35,179 bases of DNA from Planctomycetaceae bacterium (GTDB lineage: Bacteria; Planctomycetota; Planctomycetia; Planctomycetales; Planctomycetaceae): the NCBI GenBank assembly GCA_015485495.1, contig WFTL01000008.1, positions 1 to 35,179 on the forward strand. The letters are read 5' to 3'. The translations under genes and the position numbers were made by a program. Below, piece by piece: positions 1,804 through 9,672 of this stretch; position 1 is the stretch's first letter, and every line of letters starts with the position of its first letter. Under the pieces are notes generated by a model. The model was not told where the DNA came from. It was given only the letters and a program-made list of their open reading frames with translations, and did not search any database.

Positions 1804-2921
1804 CACTGTCCATCTGTCTGTCGATCATCGTGGCTGCTGCCGCACCGGAAGCTGCATCGCGTGAATCCGCCATCCGCATGCTGGGTTCGGTGTCGCGGCC
1901 GGAAGACGCGGAAGCAGCCCGCAGGGCTCTGGATGCGGTGACCCGGGGCGGGGCGGACGGTCTGCTGCCGGTGCTGCAGGGATTTTCGAATGCCACGGCT
2001 CTGGGCACCAACTGGCTGCGCAATGCGTTCGAAATTCTGGCTGCCGGTGAGCAGCGGGCGGGGCGGAAGCTTCCGGAAAACGAACTGACGGCCTTCATTC
2101 TGGAAACCGACAATCCGCCGGCCGCGCGGCGGCTGGCATGGGAATGGCTGGTGCGGCAGCACCCCGACCTGAAGACATCCATCATTCCTCAGCTTCTGCA
2201 TGACCGGCATCCGGATTTTCGCCGCGATGCGGTGGCCCTGCTGCTGGAACAGGCGGCTGCTCAAAGCGGTCCGGCGGCTGTGGCGCTGTACCGCCGGGCG
2301 TTGAGCGGGGCGGTGCATCCGGATCAGGTGAAGACCATCGCCGAAGCGCTGGCAGCGGCCGGCGAGCCGGTCCGGATCGCGGAACATTTCGGTTTTCTGA
2401 CGCAGTGGAAGATTGTCGGGCCGTTCGACAATCGGGACATGAAAGGCTTCGCCGTGCCGTACGGTCCGGAAGCTGCCGATGGTTCGGCCGAGCCGTTCGA
2501 TGCGGATGCCCGGTGGGAGGGCCTGATCGGGCCGGTCCGCTGGCAGGACATTTCCACCGACGACGATTACGGTCTGGTGGACATTGCCGGACAGATCGAG
2601 AATTACAAAGGGTCGCTGATGTATGCTGTCACGCACTTCGGATGCGACAAAGCCCGTTCCGCGGAGCTGCGGCTGGGCACGCCGAATGCATGGAAACTGT
2701 GGGTGAACGGCCGCCTGATTTTCGAACGCGAAGAGTACCACCGTGGCACGCGGATGGATCAGTACCGGATTCCGGTCCGGTTTCGTCAGGGCCGCAACGA
2801 GATTCTTCTGAAAGTGTGCCAGAACGAACAGGAACAGGACTGGGCCCAGGACTATCAGTTTCAGCTGCGTGTCTGCGACGAAAGCGGCGCCGCCATTCAT
2901 TCTGTCCAGGAAACACCATGA
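1800..2921 (+). CDS. Exported protein with helical repeats and C-terminal beta domain
   Basis: This 373-residue protein has a short hydrophobic N-terminus (MTLSICLSIIVAAAAPEAAS) that fits a signal peptide. Residues 20-190 are alanine- and leucine-rich helices resembling HEAT-type repeats (for example HPDFRRDAVALLLEQ). From about 198 the character changes: QWKIVGPFDNRDMKGF, then LWVNGRLIFEREEYHRG and RQGRNEILLKV look like a beta-sandwich of the carbohydrate-binding or galactose-binding type, often found on exported proteins of planctomycetes. No catalytic motif is visible. It overlaps its neighbours by ATGA at both ends, so it is probably co-translated with the SGNH hydrolase and the PQQ-type propeller. 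A binding or scaffold role is inferred only from this architecture. Confidence 0.75.
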   Translation: MTLSICLSIIVAAAAPEAASRESAIRMLGSVSRPEDAEAARRALDAVTRGGADGLLPVLQGFSNATALGTNWLRNAFEILAAGEQRAGRKLPENELTAFILETDNPPAARRLAWEWLVRQHPDLKTSIIPQLLHDRHPDFRRDAVALLLEQAAAQSGPAAVALYRRALSGAVHPDQVKTIAEALAAAGEPVRIAEHFGFLTQWKIVGPFDNRDMKGFAVPYGPEAADGSAEPFDADARWEGLIGPVRWQDISTDDDYGLVDIAGQIENYKGSLMYAVTHFGCDKARSAELRLGTPNAWKLWVNGRLIFEREEYHRGTRMDQYRIPVRFRQGRNEILLKVCQNEQEQDWAQDYQFQLRVCDESGAAIHSVQETP

Positions 2922-4153
2922 GCGGCGTGCAGAGTATGAACAGGAAACGCGCGGCCGTCGCAGTCGCCGGTGTTCTGATTTTTCTGAGAACAGGGAGCGC
3001 GGGCGACTGGACTCAGTTTCGCGGACCGGGCACGAATTCCGTGGCGGCCGGCCAGTCGCTGCCGGTGGAACTGAGTCGCGGGGCGATCGTCTGGGAAGCC
3101 GACCTTCCGGGACGCGGGCTGTCCGGACCGATTGTGCAGGGTGATTCTGTCATCGTGACGGCCAGTTCCGGGTACGACGACGATCGTCTGCACATTCTGT
3201 GTTTCCGTGTCGGGGATGGCACGAAAGCGTGGGAACGGCAGTTTCAGGCGACCGGACGGACGGTGACGCACGCAAAAATGTGTGTGGCCACGCCGACACC
3301 GGCGACGGACGGAGAACGCATTTTCGCGTTTTATTCCAGCAACGATCTGATCTGCACAGATCTGCAGGGTCGGCTGCAGTGGTACCGCGGACTGGGGCAG
3401 GAATATCCCAATGCCAGCAACAGTCTGGGCATGTCGTCGTCTCCTGTCGTGATCGACGGCACCGTAGTGGTTCAGGTGGAAAGCGATGCGGAAGCATTCG
3501 CCATGGGCGTCGACGCGGTCACCGGACGCACCCGCTGGAAAATCGATCGGCCGCGGCGGGCGACGTGGACCAGTCCGGCCATTCTTCCGGCGGCGGACCG
3601 ACGGTCCGCTCAGGTACTGCTGCAGTCATCGGCCGGGCTGGCCGCCGTGGATCCTCACACCGGTCAGCAGCAGTGGACATTCGGCCCCGGCGCGTCCACC
3701 ATCCCGTCGGTCACCGTCAGCGGAGACCGCATTGTGGTGCCGTCGAACGGTCTGACGGTGCTGCAGCCGTCGGCAGACGGCACATCCGTGACTGTGCTGC
3801 AGAAGGTGCGCGGGGCTCGTCCATCCACACCCAGTCCGGTGGTTCTGGGCGACGTGATGCTGACGGTCAACGGGGCCGGCGTCCTTTCGGCGAACAGCCT
3901 GACAACCGGAAAACGTCTGTGGCAGCTGAGACTGCGCGGGCGGTTCAGCAGCACGCCTGTGGCTGCCGGCGGGCATCTGTTCTGTTTCAGCGAACAGGGA
4001 ATGGCGACCGTCGTCCGCGTGACGCCGGATCAGGGAGAAATCGTGTCGGAGCTGGATCTGGGCGAAACGATCCTGAGCAGTCCGGCAGCCGCCGGCCAGG
4101 CACTGTATGTGCGCAGCGACGCGCGGCTGTGGAAATTTGCCGAATCCCGGTGA
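2918..4153 (+). CDS. Exported PQQ-type beta-propeller protein
   Basis: This 411-residue protein has a signal peptide (MNRKRAAVAVAGVLIFLRTG, cleavage near GSA-GD) followed by DWTQFRGPG, the usual opening of planctomycete PQQ-like propellers. Blades repeat the pattern of Gly-Asp/Asn turns and Trp-docking segments, such as VDAVTGRTRWKI, VDPHTGQQQWTFG and NSLTTGKRLWQL. The family resembles BamB and quinoprotein dehydrogenases, but the cofactor and catalytic residues of true PQQ dehydrogenases are not evident, so a binding or scaffold role is as likely as redox activity. The ATG at 2918 overlaps the previous stop (ATGA); an in-frame ATG at 2936 gives a tidier signal peptide and may be the real start. 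It is the third gene of a coupled trio. Confidence 0.85.
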   Translation: MSGVQSMNRKRAAVAVAGVLIFLRTGSAGDWTQFRGPGTNSVAAGQSLPVELSRGAIVWEADLPGRGLSGPIVQGDSVIVTASSGYDDDRLHILCFRVGDGTKAWERQFQATGRTVTHAKMCVATPTPATDGERIFAFYSSNDLICTDLQGRLQWYRGLGQEYPNASNSLGMSSSPVVIDGTVVVQVESDAEAFAMGVDAVTGRTRWKIDRPRRATWTSPAILPAADRRSAQVLLQSSAGLAAVDPHTGQQQWTFGPGASTIPSVTVSGDRIVVPSNGLTVLQPSADGTSVTVLQKVRGARPSTPSPVVLGDVMLTVNGAGVLSANSLTTGKRLWQLRLRGRFSSTPVAAGGHLFCFSEQGMATVVRVTPDQGEIVSELDLGETILSSPAAAGQALYVRSDARLWKFAESR

Positions 4154-6352: not shown

Positions 6353-7474
6353 TCAGTCGATCACGCTGGGCGGTGGACGTGGAGACGTTTTCGGCGAAGG
6401 CGGTGATGGCGGAGGCGGGGGCCCCAGACGGATGCCGGGAACGCCGACTGTGAGAACCCAGCCCTCCGGACGCGGTTCCCACCCGGCCTGCAGCCCCTGG
6501 TTCGTCACGATGCGCCGCGCTGTGATGTACAGACTGTAACTGTCCGGAAGAACATGAAAGCGGCAGTAGACTTTCTGTGGATCAATCGACCGGATGAACT
6601 TTCGGATGCGGGTGCCGGACCGTCTGAGGGCCCGTTCGGAGGCTCCTCGGCCATCCCGGGGATAGAAGCGGATGCGGGGCCACCGCCGATCCGCCACTGT
6701 GTATTCCACGCGAAAGAATTCGTCCGGCGGAGTCGGCAGCTTTGTGAACAGCCTGGTGAACGCATCCGGATCGATTCCGGCTGCGGGATTCCCGTCCAGA
6801 CGGTGTGCGGCGATGATCTGCTGAGCGGCCAGGCGGGCGGCTTCCTGGTGAACCGAAAGCTGAATCGGGTAGAGGCGGCCGTCGCTGCAGACGAATGTCA
6901 GTTCCTGGGCTCCTTCCGGTGCCGGGCGGGGCCAGGGGATGCGGAGTTTCAGGTCCGGCGGCGCTGTTGTCTGCGGAGCATCTTCCAGACGGGCCGCCAG
7001 TTCCGCACGGCGTTCCAGTGCCGACCGAATCGCGTCCGCCAGTTTTTCGCGGTTCGCGTCGGTTTCATCGATTTCTTTCTGACGGGTTTCCGCCAGACGG
7101 CGATCGGTTTCGATCCGGAGCTGCCAGGAGTTGACGCGTTCGGTCTGCCGTTTCACCTGAATCCGGCGGTCAGCCAGAGCGTCCTGAAGCTGCTGCAGAC
7201 GCTGCCGCATGGTGTTCGGGGCGGTTTCGGTCAGAGCCTGTTCCTGGCGGTGCAGGGCATCGAGGGTGCTGCGTCGTTCTTCAAGTTCCCGTCGGGCATC
7301 CGCCACGTCTTCAGCCGTGATATCGGATTCGGCTGTGATCCGGGCCACTTTGTCGCTGACACCGAGCTGGGTCATGATGAGGACCAGAACGAGAATCCCC
7401 ACGACGTTGGTCATGGTATCCAGCAGCGAGTCGAGGCCGCCGTCGTCGTCGGTGGGCTGGGGTCTTCGCGACAT
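6353..7474 (-). CDS. ExbD/TolR-like protein with retained membrane Asp
   Basis: This 373-residue protein has one N-terminal membrane helix preceded by an acidic stretch: TDDDGGLDSLLDTMTNVVGI, with the helix continuing to about residue 38. Asp19, at the start of the helix, matches in position the proton-carrying Asp of ExbD/TolR/MotB. A coiled coil runs from about 45 to 165. A folded periplasmic domain follows (IPWPRPAPEGAQELTFVCSD and beyond), and the tail is rich in proline (GPPPPPSPPSPKTS). It is the last gene of the three-gene leftward cassette, 30 bases after the second ExbD-like gene. Energy coupling through an ExbB-type channel is inferred; no TonB or outer-membrane receptor is in the window, so the target is unknown. 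Confidence 0.72.
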   Translation of the reverse strand: MSRRPQPTDDDGGLDSLLDTMTNVVGILVLVLIMTQLGVSDKVARITAESDITAEDVADARRELEERRSTLDALHRQEQALTETAPNTMRQRLQQLQDALADRRIQVKRQTERVNSWQLRIETDRRLAETRQKEIDETDANREKLADAIRSALERRAELAARLEDAPQTTAPPDLKLRIPWPRPAPEGAQELTFVCSDGRLYPIQLSVHQEAARLAAQQIIAAHRLDGNPAAGIDPDAFTRLFTKLPTPPDEFFRVEYTVADRRWPRIRFYPRDGRGASERALRRSGTRIRKFIRSIDPQKVYCRFHVLPDSYSLYITARRIVTNQGLQAGWEPRPEGWVLTVGVPGIRLGPPPPPSPPSPKTSPRPPPSVID

Positions 7475-7504
7475 GTTTTCTTCTGAGACCGGATGGGGAA
7501 ATCG

Positions 7505-8317
7505 TCAGGGGACGGTCCGTGATCGGGAAAAACGCGTCAGATCGATGCGGCCATCACCGGGAACGGGCAGCCGGCCGCTGCGAATGCCCAGTTCGTCGCA
7601 CAGTGTTTTCGCTGCCCGGTAGACCGGCAGACCATCCGGCCGAATCAGAAAGACGAGCATGTCTTCCGGTCCGGCGGCGACCGTATTGAGCACGTTCAGG
7701 AAATCGGCATCGGTGACCATTTCGGCTGCGCGAATCAGCTTCGGCGGGTTCTGCGTGTGCAGCACGATCGCTCCTTTGGCACATTCCACGAAATGCGGTT
7801 TCAGATGGACACCGCTGCCGGCCGGCAGAACGGACACCGTGGTTTCCGCGGCCTGAAGGCGCTGTTCCAGTTCGCGTTCCATCTGCGCCAGTTCCTGCTG
7901 CAGAGCGTCCAGTTCCGCCTGCAGGGAGGCCACGGTTTCGCGGCGGGACGGATCGATCTCCGGAATGACGATCCGGACGTTCTGCAGTTCCTGGAGCTGT
8001 GCCTGCAGTTGTTTCTGTTCTGCTTCCAGAGCCGCCAGTTCCTCGCGCTGCCGCTGCAGGGTTTCCTGCAGCGAGATTCCGTCAGGCCCCTGGAATTCGG
8101 CCAGTCTTTCCGAGACGCGGTCGATTTCCGAATCGGTCCGGTCGATCTGCTGCTGCAGTTTTTCCCACGCTTCGATGACAGCGATTTCCTCGCCGTCCAT
8201 CTGGGCCAGCGCCATGGTGGAAATCATCATCGTGAGCACGCCGATGAGACAGGCAATGACGCTCAGGAAGGGGAACAGCGAGACGTCTTCGTCGTCGAAA
8301 AACCGTCGGCGCGGCAT
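7505..8317 (-). CDS. ExbD/TolR-like protein lacking the membrane Asp
   Basis: This 270-residue protein starts MPRRRFFDDEDVSLFPFLSV, followed by a single membrane helix to about residue 38. The FPFLSV motif corresponds to FIDV of ExbD but has Ser19 where the proton-carrying Asp is expected; acidic residues stop at 11, before the helix. A long coiled coil covers about 45-160. A small alpha/beta periplasmic domain at about 165-265 carries HFVECAKGAIVLH, a pattern common in planctomycete ExbD-like proteins. A strong Shine-Dalgarno (GGGAGG) precedes the ATG, and the start shares one base with the upstream stop (TGATG), so translation is coupled to the ExbB-like gene. A structural partner role in a mixed ExbD pair is inferred. 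Confidence 0.75.
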   Translation of the reverse strand: MPRRRFFDDEDVSLFPFLSVIACLIGVLTMMISTMALAQMDGEEIAVIEAWEKLQQQIDRTDSEIDRVSERLAEFQGPDGISLQETLQRQREELAALEAEQKQLQAQLQELQNVRIVIPEIDPSRRETVASLQAELDALQQELAQMERELEQRLQAAETTVSVLPAGSGVHLKPHFVECAKGAIVLHTQNPPKLIRAAEMVTDADFLNVLNTVAAGPEDMLVFLIRPDGLPVYRAAKTLCDELGIRSGRLPVPGDGRIDLTRFSRSRTVP

Positions 8318-9672
8318 CAGGAATCCTCCCGGCGGCCAAACAGGAACCAGCGTTTCCGGGGCTGCACCTGCTGCACGACGACGGACTGTTCGCCCAGCCG
8401 TTCGAGAACTCCGTTGAGTTTCTTCAGGCCGCGGGCGATGCCATGAAAGGAACCGTTCAGTTCTGTTCGCACGTCGGCTGTTTCACGGGCGACTCCTGCA
8501 AGCAGATTCTGCATCTGCTCGGCGGCGGAATTCATCAGAGAAAGCTGTTCGTGCAGTTCGGCCCGCTGTTCATTCAGAACAGAAGCGACGATGCCGCGAA
8601 ATGTTTCCTCATCACGGCCGGAACTGTCCGGACCGCTGCGCAACGAACCGTCGTGCAGGCGCAGCAGCAGATTCTCATTGCAGTATTCATCCACCGCGGT
8701 GATCAGGGCTTCTTCGCTTTTCTGCAGACCCGATGCGGGAATTTTCACCATCATGCTCATGATGAGCGCCAGCAGGGTCGTGTCGAAGGCCGTTTTCAGA
8801 CCATCGAACACTCCGGTGAGTGCGGTTTTGAGCTGAGTGACATCGCTGGCGCTGTCCAGACTGCCGGCCAGCCCCGCAACGGCTCCGCTGATTCCGATGA
8901 CCGTGCCGATGAACCCCAGAATCGGCAGAGACCAGATGAAGACTTTCAGCAAAGCGAAGCTGCCGGCCACGTTGCTGGCATCGATGGCCGACTGCGACTC
9001 CAGCATCGTGGCCGTATCGGCTGCCCGCTGCCGCACACGAAAGTGTTCCAGCCCCCGGACGACACGGTTGACCAGAAAGCTTTCCTGAGGACTCACGGGC
9101 AGTTCTTCGATGTGACGCAGAAAACGATCGGCGGAGTCCGGTGTGATCTGTCGGGAGAGTTCCGTCGGCAGAACGTCCAGGAGCATCGCTTCGCGCTGTG
9201 TGCGCAGGTGCACCCATTTGAAGAACAGGATGCTGAAAGACCAGAACATCAGAAACGTGGTGGCAAAAGGAACCCAGCCGCGTTCCCAGAACAGCGCGCC
9301 TGCAGCGGTGTGTCTCAAAGGAAACAGAATCCCCAGCCAGATGACCGTCAGAGCGAACCCGACGGCCCCGCTGACCGGAAGACTGACATCGGTACTGACC
9401 GAATCGCTGCGGCCGGCATGGAACCAGCGCCCTTTCGATCGCCGGCGGCGCGCCCGCCGCGGCGGGCGCACGGCGGAAGACCGGACCGGATCGGTCACGG
9501 GGACGACCAGGTTCGACAGATCGTCTTCCGCCTGAGTCGGCTGCGGTTCCGGTTCGGGAATCCGCATGCTTTGTCGGCAGTGAGGGCACCGGCGGGACTG
9601 GCCGGCCAGGTCTCTGGAAATCCGGAGTGACCTGGAACAGTGCGGGCAGGAAAACCGGAAGTACGCAGTCAT
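8317..9672 (-). CDS. MotA/TolQ/ExbB-type proton channel with zinc ribbon
   Basis: This 451-residue protein begins with a cytoplasmic zinc ribbon: Cys9-x2-Cys12 and Cys29-x2-Cys32 (CPHC ... CPHC). A basic linker (PPRRARRRRSK) follows, then membrane helices at about 103-120 and 133-152. After a long cytoplasmic stretch come the two core MotA/TolQ/ExbB helices: FIWSLPILGFIGTVIGISGA (245-264) and a helix near 290-308 containing TAFDTTLLALI. The C-terminal 130 residues are helical and end in RKRWFLFGRRE. The family forms a pentameric channel around an ExbD dimer and converts ion flow into mechanical work. The start at 9672 is chosen because the ribbon begins there; the frame continues upstream without protein-like sequence. 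It leads the cassette with two ExbD-like genes. Confidence 0.85.
   Translation of the reverse strand: MTAYFRFSCPHCSRSLRISRDLAGQSRRCPHCRQSMRIPEPEPQPTQAEDDLSNLVVPVTDPVRSSAVRPPRRARRRRSKGRWFHAGRSDSVSTDVSLPVSGAVGFALTVIWLGILFPLRHTAAGALFWERGWVPFATTFLMFWSFSILFFKWVHLRTQREAMLLDVLPTELSRQITPDSADRFLRHIEELPVSPQESFLVNRVVRGLEHFRVRQRAADTATMLESQSAIDASNVAGSFALLKVFIWSLPILGFIGTVIGISGAVAGLAGSLDSASDVTQLKTALTGVFDGLKTAFDTTLLALIMSMMVKIPASGLQKSEEALITAVDEYCNENLLLRLHDGSLRSGPDSSGRDEETFRGIVASVLNEQRAELHEQLSLMNSAAEQMQNLLAGVARETADVRTELNGSFHGIARGLKKLNGVLERLGEQSVVVQQVQPRKRWFLFGRREDS
8325..8330 (-). promoter_or_regulatory. Shine-Dalgarno for second ExbD-like gene
   Basis: On the minus strand this reads GGGAGG, seven bases before the ATG at 8317. 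It lies inside the last codons of the ExbB-like gene and fixes the start of the downstream gene. It is one of the few near-consensus sites in this window. Confidence 0.7.

Follow-up and report, generated by a model that had tools for sequence, protein, structure and literature searches.

A three-gene unit on the minus strand of a 35,179-nucleotide stretch of contig WFTL01000008.1 (Planctomycetaceae bacterium, GenBank assembly GCA_015485495.1), hereafter the window, encodes a channel protein of the MotA/TolQ/ExbB superfamily and two partners, S and D, of which only D keeps an Asp at position 19 of its transmembrane (TM) helix. The D motif, LDSLLDTMTNVVG, contains Asp19, and the S motif, SLFPFLSVIACLIG, contains Ser19. 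Profile comparison supports the view that S and D are homologous but unequal partners. Judging from sequence, we consider that the unit probably specifies a proton motor of the 5:2 family whose shaft would be an S+D heterodimer with a single Asp, and we give this reading a probability of about 60%. The features of the unit are as follows.

9672-8320, minus strand: channel gene P0001, 451 amino acids, MotA/TolQ/ExbB superfamily
8317-7505, minus strand: S partner P0002, second gene, 270 amino acids, TM helix with Ser19
8261..8263, minus strand: codon 19 of S, AGC (Ser), from the codon check
7474-6353, minus strand: D partner P0003, third gene, 373 amino acids, TM helix with Asp15 and Asp19
7418..7420, minus strand: codon 19 of D, GAT (Asp), from the codon check

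The preliminary description of this DNA had announced three open reading frames (ORFs), a channel and two partners encoded back to back with overlapping or near-overlapping junctions, with Asp19 in one partner and Ser19 in the other. All three frames are present on the minus strand, and the codons bear out both residues. The channel and S genes overlap by one base at a TGATG junction, where the S start lies inside the channel stop codon, and 30 bp separate S from D. The two dissimilar single-helix partners of that description also hold, with one hydrophobic helix found by hydropathy in each of S and D, and the profile comparisons below add that the two are related.

Within this phylum, to which the search for these families was confined, the channel profile was run against 392 genomes and matched at E ≤ 1e-6 in 95 of them; the partners were read for matches down to about E 1e-45 and for 13 weaker ones, and 20 further loci were among those read. 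The gathering patterns left the site in S free (S, T, A, G, C, N, V, D or E) and likewise the site in D (D, S, N, A or E), requiring in D an Asp four residues earlier. Three classes of locus emerged. Type A, the class of the window, comprises 25 loci, 24 of them in 23 of the 392 genomes and one (L026, in a Planctomycetales metagenome-assembled genome, the host's closest named relative in the search) found by scanning genome contigs for relatives. Type B comprises 37 loci without the cysteine ribbon of the type A channel, with a longer second protein carrying FPFLA or FPFLT and a third carrying DSFLD or a near form. In type C, the second gene has LFxFQD (or LLAFQD) and the third has LELLLD or a variant of it. 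In type A, the Asp column of the S gene has Ser in 25/25 and the D gene has Asp in 23/23, a count that leaves out genomes G381 and G385, whose D genes were located only; in type B, the S gene has Ala in 35 and Thr in 2 of 37, and the D gene has Asp in 35/35. Genes found by profile, with no motif applied, gave the same picture, the 63 S-type genes having Ser (26), Ala (35) or Thr (2) and the 58 D-type genes having Asp in 57, with one that the script left unparsed.

That the Asp/Ser difference is peculiar to the window genome or a sequencing slip is rejected by these type A counts. Nor are all paired exbD genes of planctomycetes unequal: as a control, Asp is present in each member of 9/9 displayed canonical tandem exbD pairs from these genomes, drawn from 11 multi-gene loci of which two (L147 and L151) had one member only displayed. 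The window genome also holds a type B paralogue (L027 1-2849, contig C97), with a channel and an FPFLA partner whose stalk is 222 residues long; this copy ends at the contig edge before the D gene.

By comparing profiles, we found that the two S families (types A and B) match at 99.9%, the two D families at 99.9%, and S and D of type A at 98.3%; S of types A and B join the second gene of type C at 99.4-99.9%, and D of both types joins the third gene at 99.5-99.9%, scores that coiled-coil composition is able to inflate. When the N-terminal regions are aligned, Ser19 of S shares a column with Asp19 of D (79.5%) and with that of the type C FQD proteins (97.4%); Asp19 of D meets the Asp of canonical ExbD with a probability of only 22%, and S was left unaligned with canonical ExbD at this site (0.75%). 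The type B S profile reaches canonical ExbD at 99.2%, over the C-terminal domain. In the Pfam searches, the ExbD family PF02472 is absent from all 8 rows for D and from the best 25 of 54 for S, and coil-free N- and C-terminal pieces of the two proteins gave no Pfam row at E ≤ 5. The type B second proteins (for example, L044 8243-10027) seemingly hold two ExbD-like regions with a long Gly/Ser/Gln-rich linker between them, the C-terminal one being that which matches the canonical ExbD profile.

Both partners of the window begin with the TM helix and continue into a helical stalk, which is about 155 residues long in S and about 175 in D. In S, a putative TolR-like periplasmic domain follows at about 173-249; in D, a periplasmic region is followed by a proline-rich tail ending in -ID. 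The AlphaFold model of S, built from two sequences only, has a mean pLDDT of 62 and shows in 173-249 the order E-E-E-H-E-H-E, which is that expected of TolR. Foldseek placed TolR (5by4) at rank 6 for this model (probability 0.89, TMt 0.53, E 0.11), a match that is weak alone; in VIA-align the rows were coiled coil, with TolR absent among the 50 matches listed. The long coiled coils that the preliminary description saw in both proteins correspond to helical stalks, and their far reach into the periplasm stays conjectural; the S model splits the helix into three.

It could also be supposed that S lies outside the pore, bound to the channel exterior in the manner of TonB or TolA and passing force on. 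Its Ser, with no Asp in the helix, and the lack of a TonB_C or TonB_2 match in the window's own genome would suit such a role. However, the SHLS motif of TonB and TolA needs a His (PMC12204202), and the TM stretch of S has no His in 25/25 type A proteins; moreover, the second gene of type C carries Asp in the column of Ser19, and S shares homology with D and, via the C-terminal domain of type B, with canonical ExbD. We regard a place outside the pore as decidedly unlikely.

The strongest new support for the pairing of S with D comes from matched stalks, as read from the sequences of type B. Stalk length was counted between two anchors, the Asp column and the periplasmic domain's first conserved strand; these anchors differ between types A and B, so that exact comparison holds only within a type. 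Across 35 type B operons, the lengths of the S stalks (153-292 residues) and of the D stalks (155-302 residues) are correlated at r 0.946, and within a pair they differ by 8.1 residues on average. With one operon per genus (n = 19), r is 0.961 and none of 20,000 shuffles came as close; independent contrasts on the channel tree gave r 0.931 (0/10,000), and the contrasts of the S stalk and the D stalk with the rest of S gave r -0.02 and 0.12, respectively. Since the two classes can differ within one cell (by 65-84 residues in genome G291, with S/D stalks of 154/165 in type A and 238/230 in type B; G266 has 154/165 and 214/217), the periplasm of that cell does not by its width alone dictate the match, and species periplasm width as its sole cause is rejected.

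The three genes lie in a row at 16 of the 25 type A loci; the remaining 9, all from one genus (g3), have only the channel and S side by side. In that genus, D lies at a distance from them, with 662 kb between in G048, and in G227 and G344 it sits on a different contig. The preliminary description had regarded frequent separation of the two partner genes as telling against the pair. Separation does occur, at 9/25 loci in this one genus, but D is present in 9/9 of its genomes, so S and D can part and yet both be kept. An alternative in which S and D form two homodimers, D-D acting as the shaft that does the work and S-S producing a silent or plugged channel, which would govern how many motors are active or when, or else compete with D for the channel, finds some footing here: S adjoins the channel gene in that genus and D does not, homodimers are described as the rule in ExbD, TolR and MotB, and an S-S shaft would be proton-blind because the TM stretch of S has no acidic residue in 25/25 type A proteins. 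The tracking of S and D stalk lengths across the 35 type B operons argues against it, as does the presence of D in every g3 genome having the channel and S, and we hold two homodimers to be rather unlikely.

Several observations weigh against the heterodimeric single-Asp shaft. The survey of conservation that the preliminary description called for found that every type A and type B gene read conforms to the Asp/non-Asp split, but type C keeps Asp in both partners, which that description had named as counting against the pair, and the asymmetry is therefore not needed for the architecture. Eleven second genes and twelve third genes of type C with Asp were gathered, with a pattern that itself contained Asp, so these counts show the existence and not the frequency of pairs with both. 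Four more type C loci with Asp in both partners were seen without a motif filter, and the motif-free hydropathy listings held no FxFQ gene with a letter other than Asp at the site. Type A is also patchy within the window's own family (12 of the 27 sampled genomes). In genome G060 (L108), which is 90% complete, an S-type gene with Ser is present with no D-type gene at E ≤ 0.001, and in G373 neither partner read has Asp (L173, L175). Apart from type B S, the other five partner profiles meet canonical ExbD at only 0.4-2.7% (0.5% for type A S and 2.2% for D), and the structure model of D is too poor for use (pLDDT 48.9), with no meaningful Foldseek row. As for the stalks, their contrasts with the rest of D are not zero (r -0.47 and -0.44; 128 and 140 of 10,000), so that this control is unclean and changes in length extend to some degree beyond the pair; the 16 linked pairs of type A (S 154-163, D 165-175) give r 0.17, which is uninformative because the lengths hardly vary; and matched lengths could instead reflect two homodimers reaching the same layer.

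Neither type C nor the separation in g3 refutes the paired-partner reading outright. Type C may represent the state before the loss of Asp. The channel tree groups type A with type C (94/74) and sets type B apart, but its root is unplaced, the lone canonical row sitting on a very long branch, and the tree is unable to separate one loss of Asp from two. The system of G373 looks rewired or decayed: at L173 (5070-7379) the protein encoded after the channel is of another kind and carries DSFVA, which puts Ala at the Asp place, and a D-like protein elsewhere (L175) has a helix without Asp. This case, together with an open-access literature search that gave no paper testing the family, could be taken to favor a degenerate system or one that leaks protons or conducts ions but does not rotate. 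Invariant threonines, the Asp and the partner stalks recur over many genera, which speaks against that explanation, and we consider it very improbable.

Several structures and models of related motors are the background for a mechanism. The structures of TolQR, MotAB and PomAB are described as placing their two Asp differently, one lying on a threonine ring and one facing the cytoplasmic cavity, with one TolQR structure, in which both lie near the cavity, as the exception (PMC12215075, PMC12905483); in one rotation model, the two exchange protonation at every 36-degree step (PMC12905483). In the heterodimeric motor that we propose here, S and D would share one channel pentamer with their stalks side by side, and protons would be carried only by Asp19 of D, docking on the Thr ring. 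If the axle is S+D, only D could carry a proton, and each turn would then comprise five proton steps of about 72 degrees, replacing ten of 36. S would occupy the second helix place, fixing geometry and direction and bringing its own TolR-like domain. For the fuller version, in which the heterodimer is an obligate axle bearing one proton site, one subunit has lost its Asp once or twice, the arrangement has been kept across many genera with matched twin stalks, and half the protons are used per turn, we see an even chance.

Asp15 and Asp19 of D are invariant in 19/19 aligned rows, and Asp15, one turn nearer the cytoplasm, could act as a relay site. The type C third genes gathered have Glu at this position; because type C is thus also acidic there, Asp15 does not represent compensation for the missing Asp of S. 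The tail of D, which is rich in proline, is possibly a docking signal or a linker. In type A its last residue is Asp in 23/23, with 6-18 Pro within the last 35 residues; the third proteins of type B end in Gln in 32/35 and those of type C in 10/12. In the window, positions 6356-6460 encode this tail at the D C-terminus, and nearly all relatives end in -ID, -LD or -VD. The unit holds no TonB, Pal or receptor gene, as the preliminary description had observed, and the window's own genome has no match at E ≤ 0.001 to PF03544 (TonB_C), PF13103 (TonB_2) or the TonB receptor family PF00593, Pal not having been searched for there. Because of these missing matches, the D tail is the best candidate for force transfer, and in type A the proline-rich -ID tail may pass force in place of TonB or TolA.

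Two Asp underlie the models of rotation put forward for MotAB, ExbBD and TolQR. If the single-Asp shaft is real, one site is enough, and these motors would offer a natural test of whether two sites are needed for direction, step size and torque; the unequal shafts would also make the axle no longer two-fold symmetric, to the benefit of structural studies. Types A, B and C, with Ser, Ala/Thr and Asp at one column, are a ready-made mutational series.

The channel matches the Pfam family PF01618 (MotA_ExbB) at E 1.4e-6 with 28.6 bits, above the curated cut-off of 22.9, and so bears out the ExbB-like channel of the preliminary description. By hydropathy, it has four hydrophobic segments (98-116, 133-151, 251-269 and 298-316). 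Among the aligned channels, 15/17 have at least four hydrophobic windows, with three in L043 and two in the truncated L026. The N-terminus carries a CxxC..CxxC ribbon, found at 24/25 type A loci (the 25th being the truncated L026) and at 0/37 of type B, and the C-terminus forms a long tail. ExbB and TolQ proper have a three-TM topology, and the ribbon, the four hydrophobic segments and the long tail set this channel apart from a plain ExbB. The start was set at ATG 9672 in preference to GTG 10128, because relatives start at the same CxxC ribbon. Thr257, Thr298 and Thr299 are among the invariant columns (17/17 aligned rows), and by motif likeness to the TolQ pore threonines T145 and T178 (numbering of PMC12215075) we infer that they may form the ring meeting the partner Asp.

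The relatives of the channel raise the further idea of an anti-phage or signaling device of the Zorya kind in place of an envelope motor. The channel family profile finds in the PDB first 8vvn, an unnamed protein with a MotA/TolQ/ExbB domain (7.2e-8), and then ZorA 8qyd (1.2e-7), and the channel is also hit by the ZorA models of PADLOC (best 1.7e-6); the patchy presence in the family could also be read in this way. On the other hand, the window channel alone is closest in the PDB to TolQ, although weakly (E 0.022). The PADLOC searches gave no ZorB for D (all 19 rows), for S (best 25 of 51) or for the coil-free pieces, and no neighbor recurs in the compared flanks. We therefore judge a Zorya-like role to be highly unlikely.

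Among known systems, unequal ExbD-like pairs have precedents, and the loss of Asp in one partner is the new part; the open-access literature searched yielded no description of a partner having lost it. The closest likeness is to AglR/AglQ/AglS of Myxococcus xanthus, where one TolQ-like channel and two different TolR/ExbD-like partners are encoded in one cluster (PMC9389320; the precedent of unequal partners appears also in PMC9120999). AglQ and AglS are both described with the conserved Asp, and whether they form hetero- or homodimers is said not to be known yet (PMC9389320); both are also described as PF02472 matches (PMC3169522). The present system differs in that S lacks the Asp, the partners are long-stalked, and PF02472 goes unmatched (for S, within the best 25 of 54 rows). 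In the PVC group, heterologous tolR-like gene pairs are reported beside a tolQ-like gene (PMC12204202) and so resemble the unequal pair described here, but the compared flanks of type A share no recurring vWA or TPR gene, and section 8 of that article is silent on a partner without Asp. With ExbB-ExbD and TolQ-TolR of Escherichia coli, the unit shares the channel superfamily, an Asp on a one-helix partner and the apparent TolR-like domain order in S; there, however, the Asp-bearing partner is a homodimer and TonB or TolA transduces, whereas here we find four hydrophobic segments, the ribbon, unequal partners and no TonB by search. ZorA-ZorB resembles the unit in that a ZorA structure is among the two best matches of the channel family profile, and differs in having one partner against two, with no ZorB match for D or among the best 25 of 51 rows for S. 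Such motors are surveyed in PMC12505986.

The unit lies between a divergent DUF1501 gene on one side and a convergent MatE gene on the other, and the flanking gene types in the window are MatE, CrcB, DUF1501 and PSCyt/PSD1, with one neighboring gene carrying PSCyt1 and PSD1 domains, in keeping with a planctomycete host. Promoter-like sites (1 against 0.4 expected) and terminator-like sites (2 against 3.8 expected) gave no signal. In the type A flanks compared, which mostly spanned 3 kb to one side and 6 kb to the other, with about 8 kb for some, nothing recurred across at least three genera except the unit's own three genes and the frames antisense to them. Proteins with a PQQ/BamB-like beta-propeller are common in this group; one is encoded near the unit at 2405-4153 of the window, and such a gene adjoins the channel and S in genus g3 (L055-L066), a proximity that may be due to chance.

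Further relatives lie beyond the three types. At two distant loci judged by eye (L170 and L172), the second gene is seemingly without Asp and the third has it. The first of these (L170 2870-5571) belongs to a distant family and has a ribbon channel, an S-like protein with Ser (ORF of 192 amino acids) and a D-like protein with Asp (ORF of 251 amino acids), almost without stalks. At L105, L158, L161, L164-L169 and L171, the channel is accompanied by one or two partners with (S)xSF(L/I)D that have Asp, and these loci represent further unnamed motor classes.

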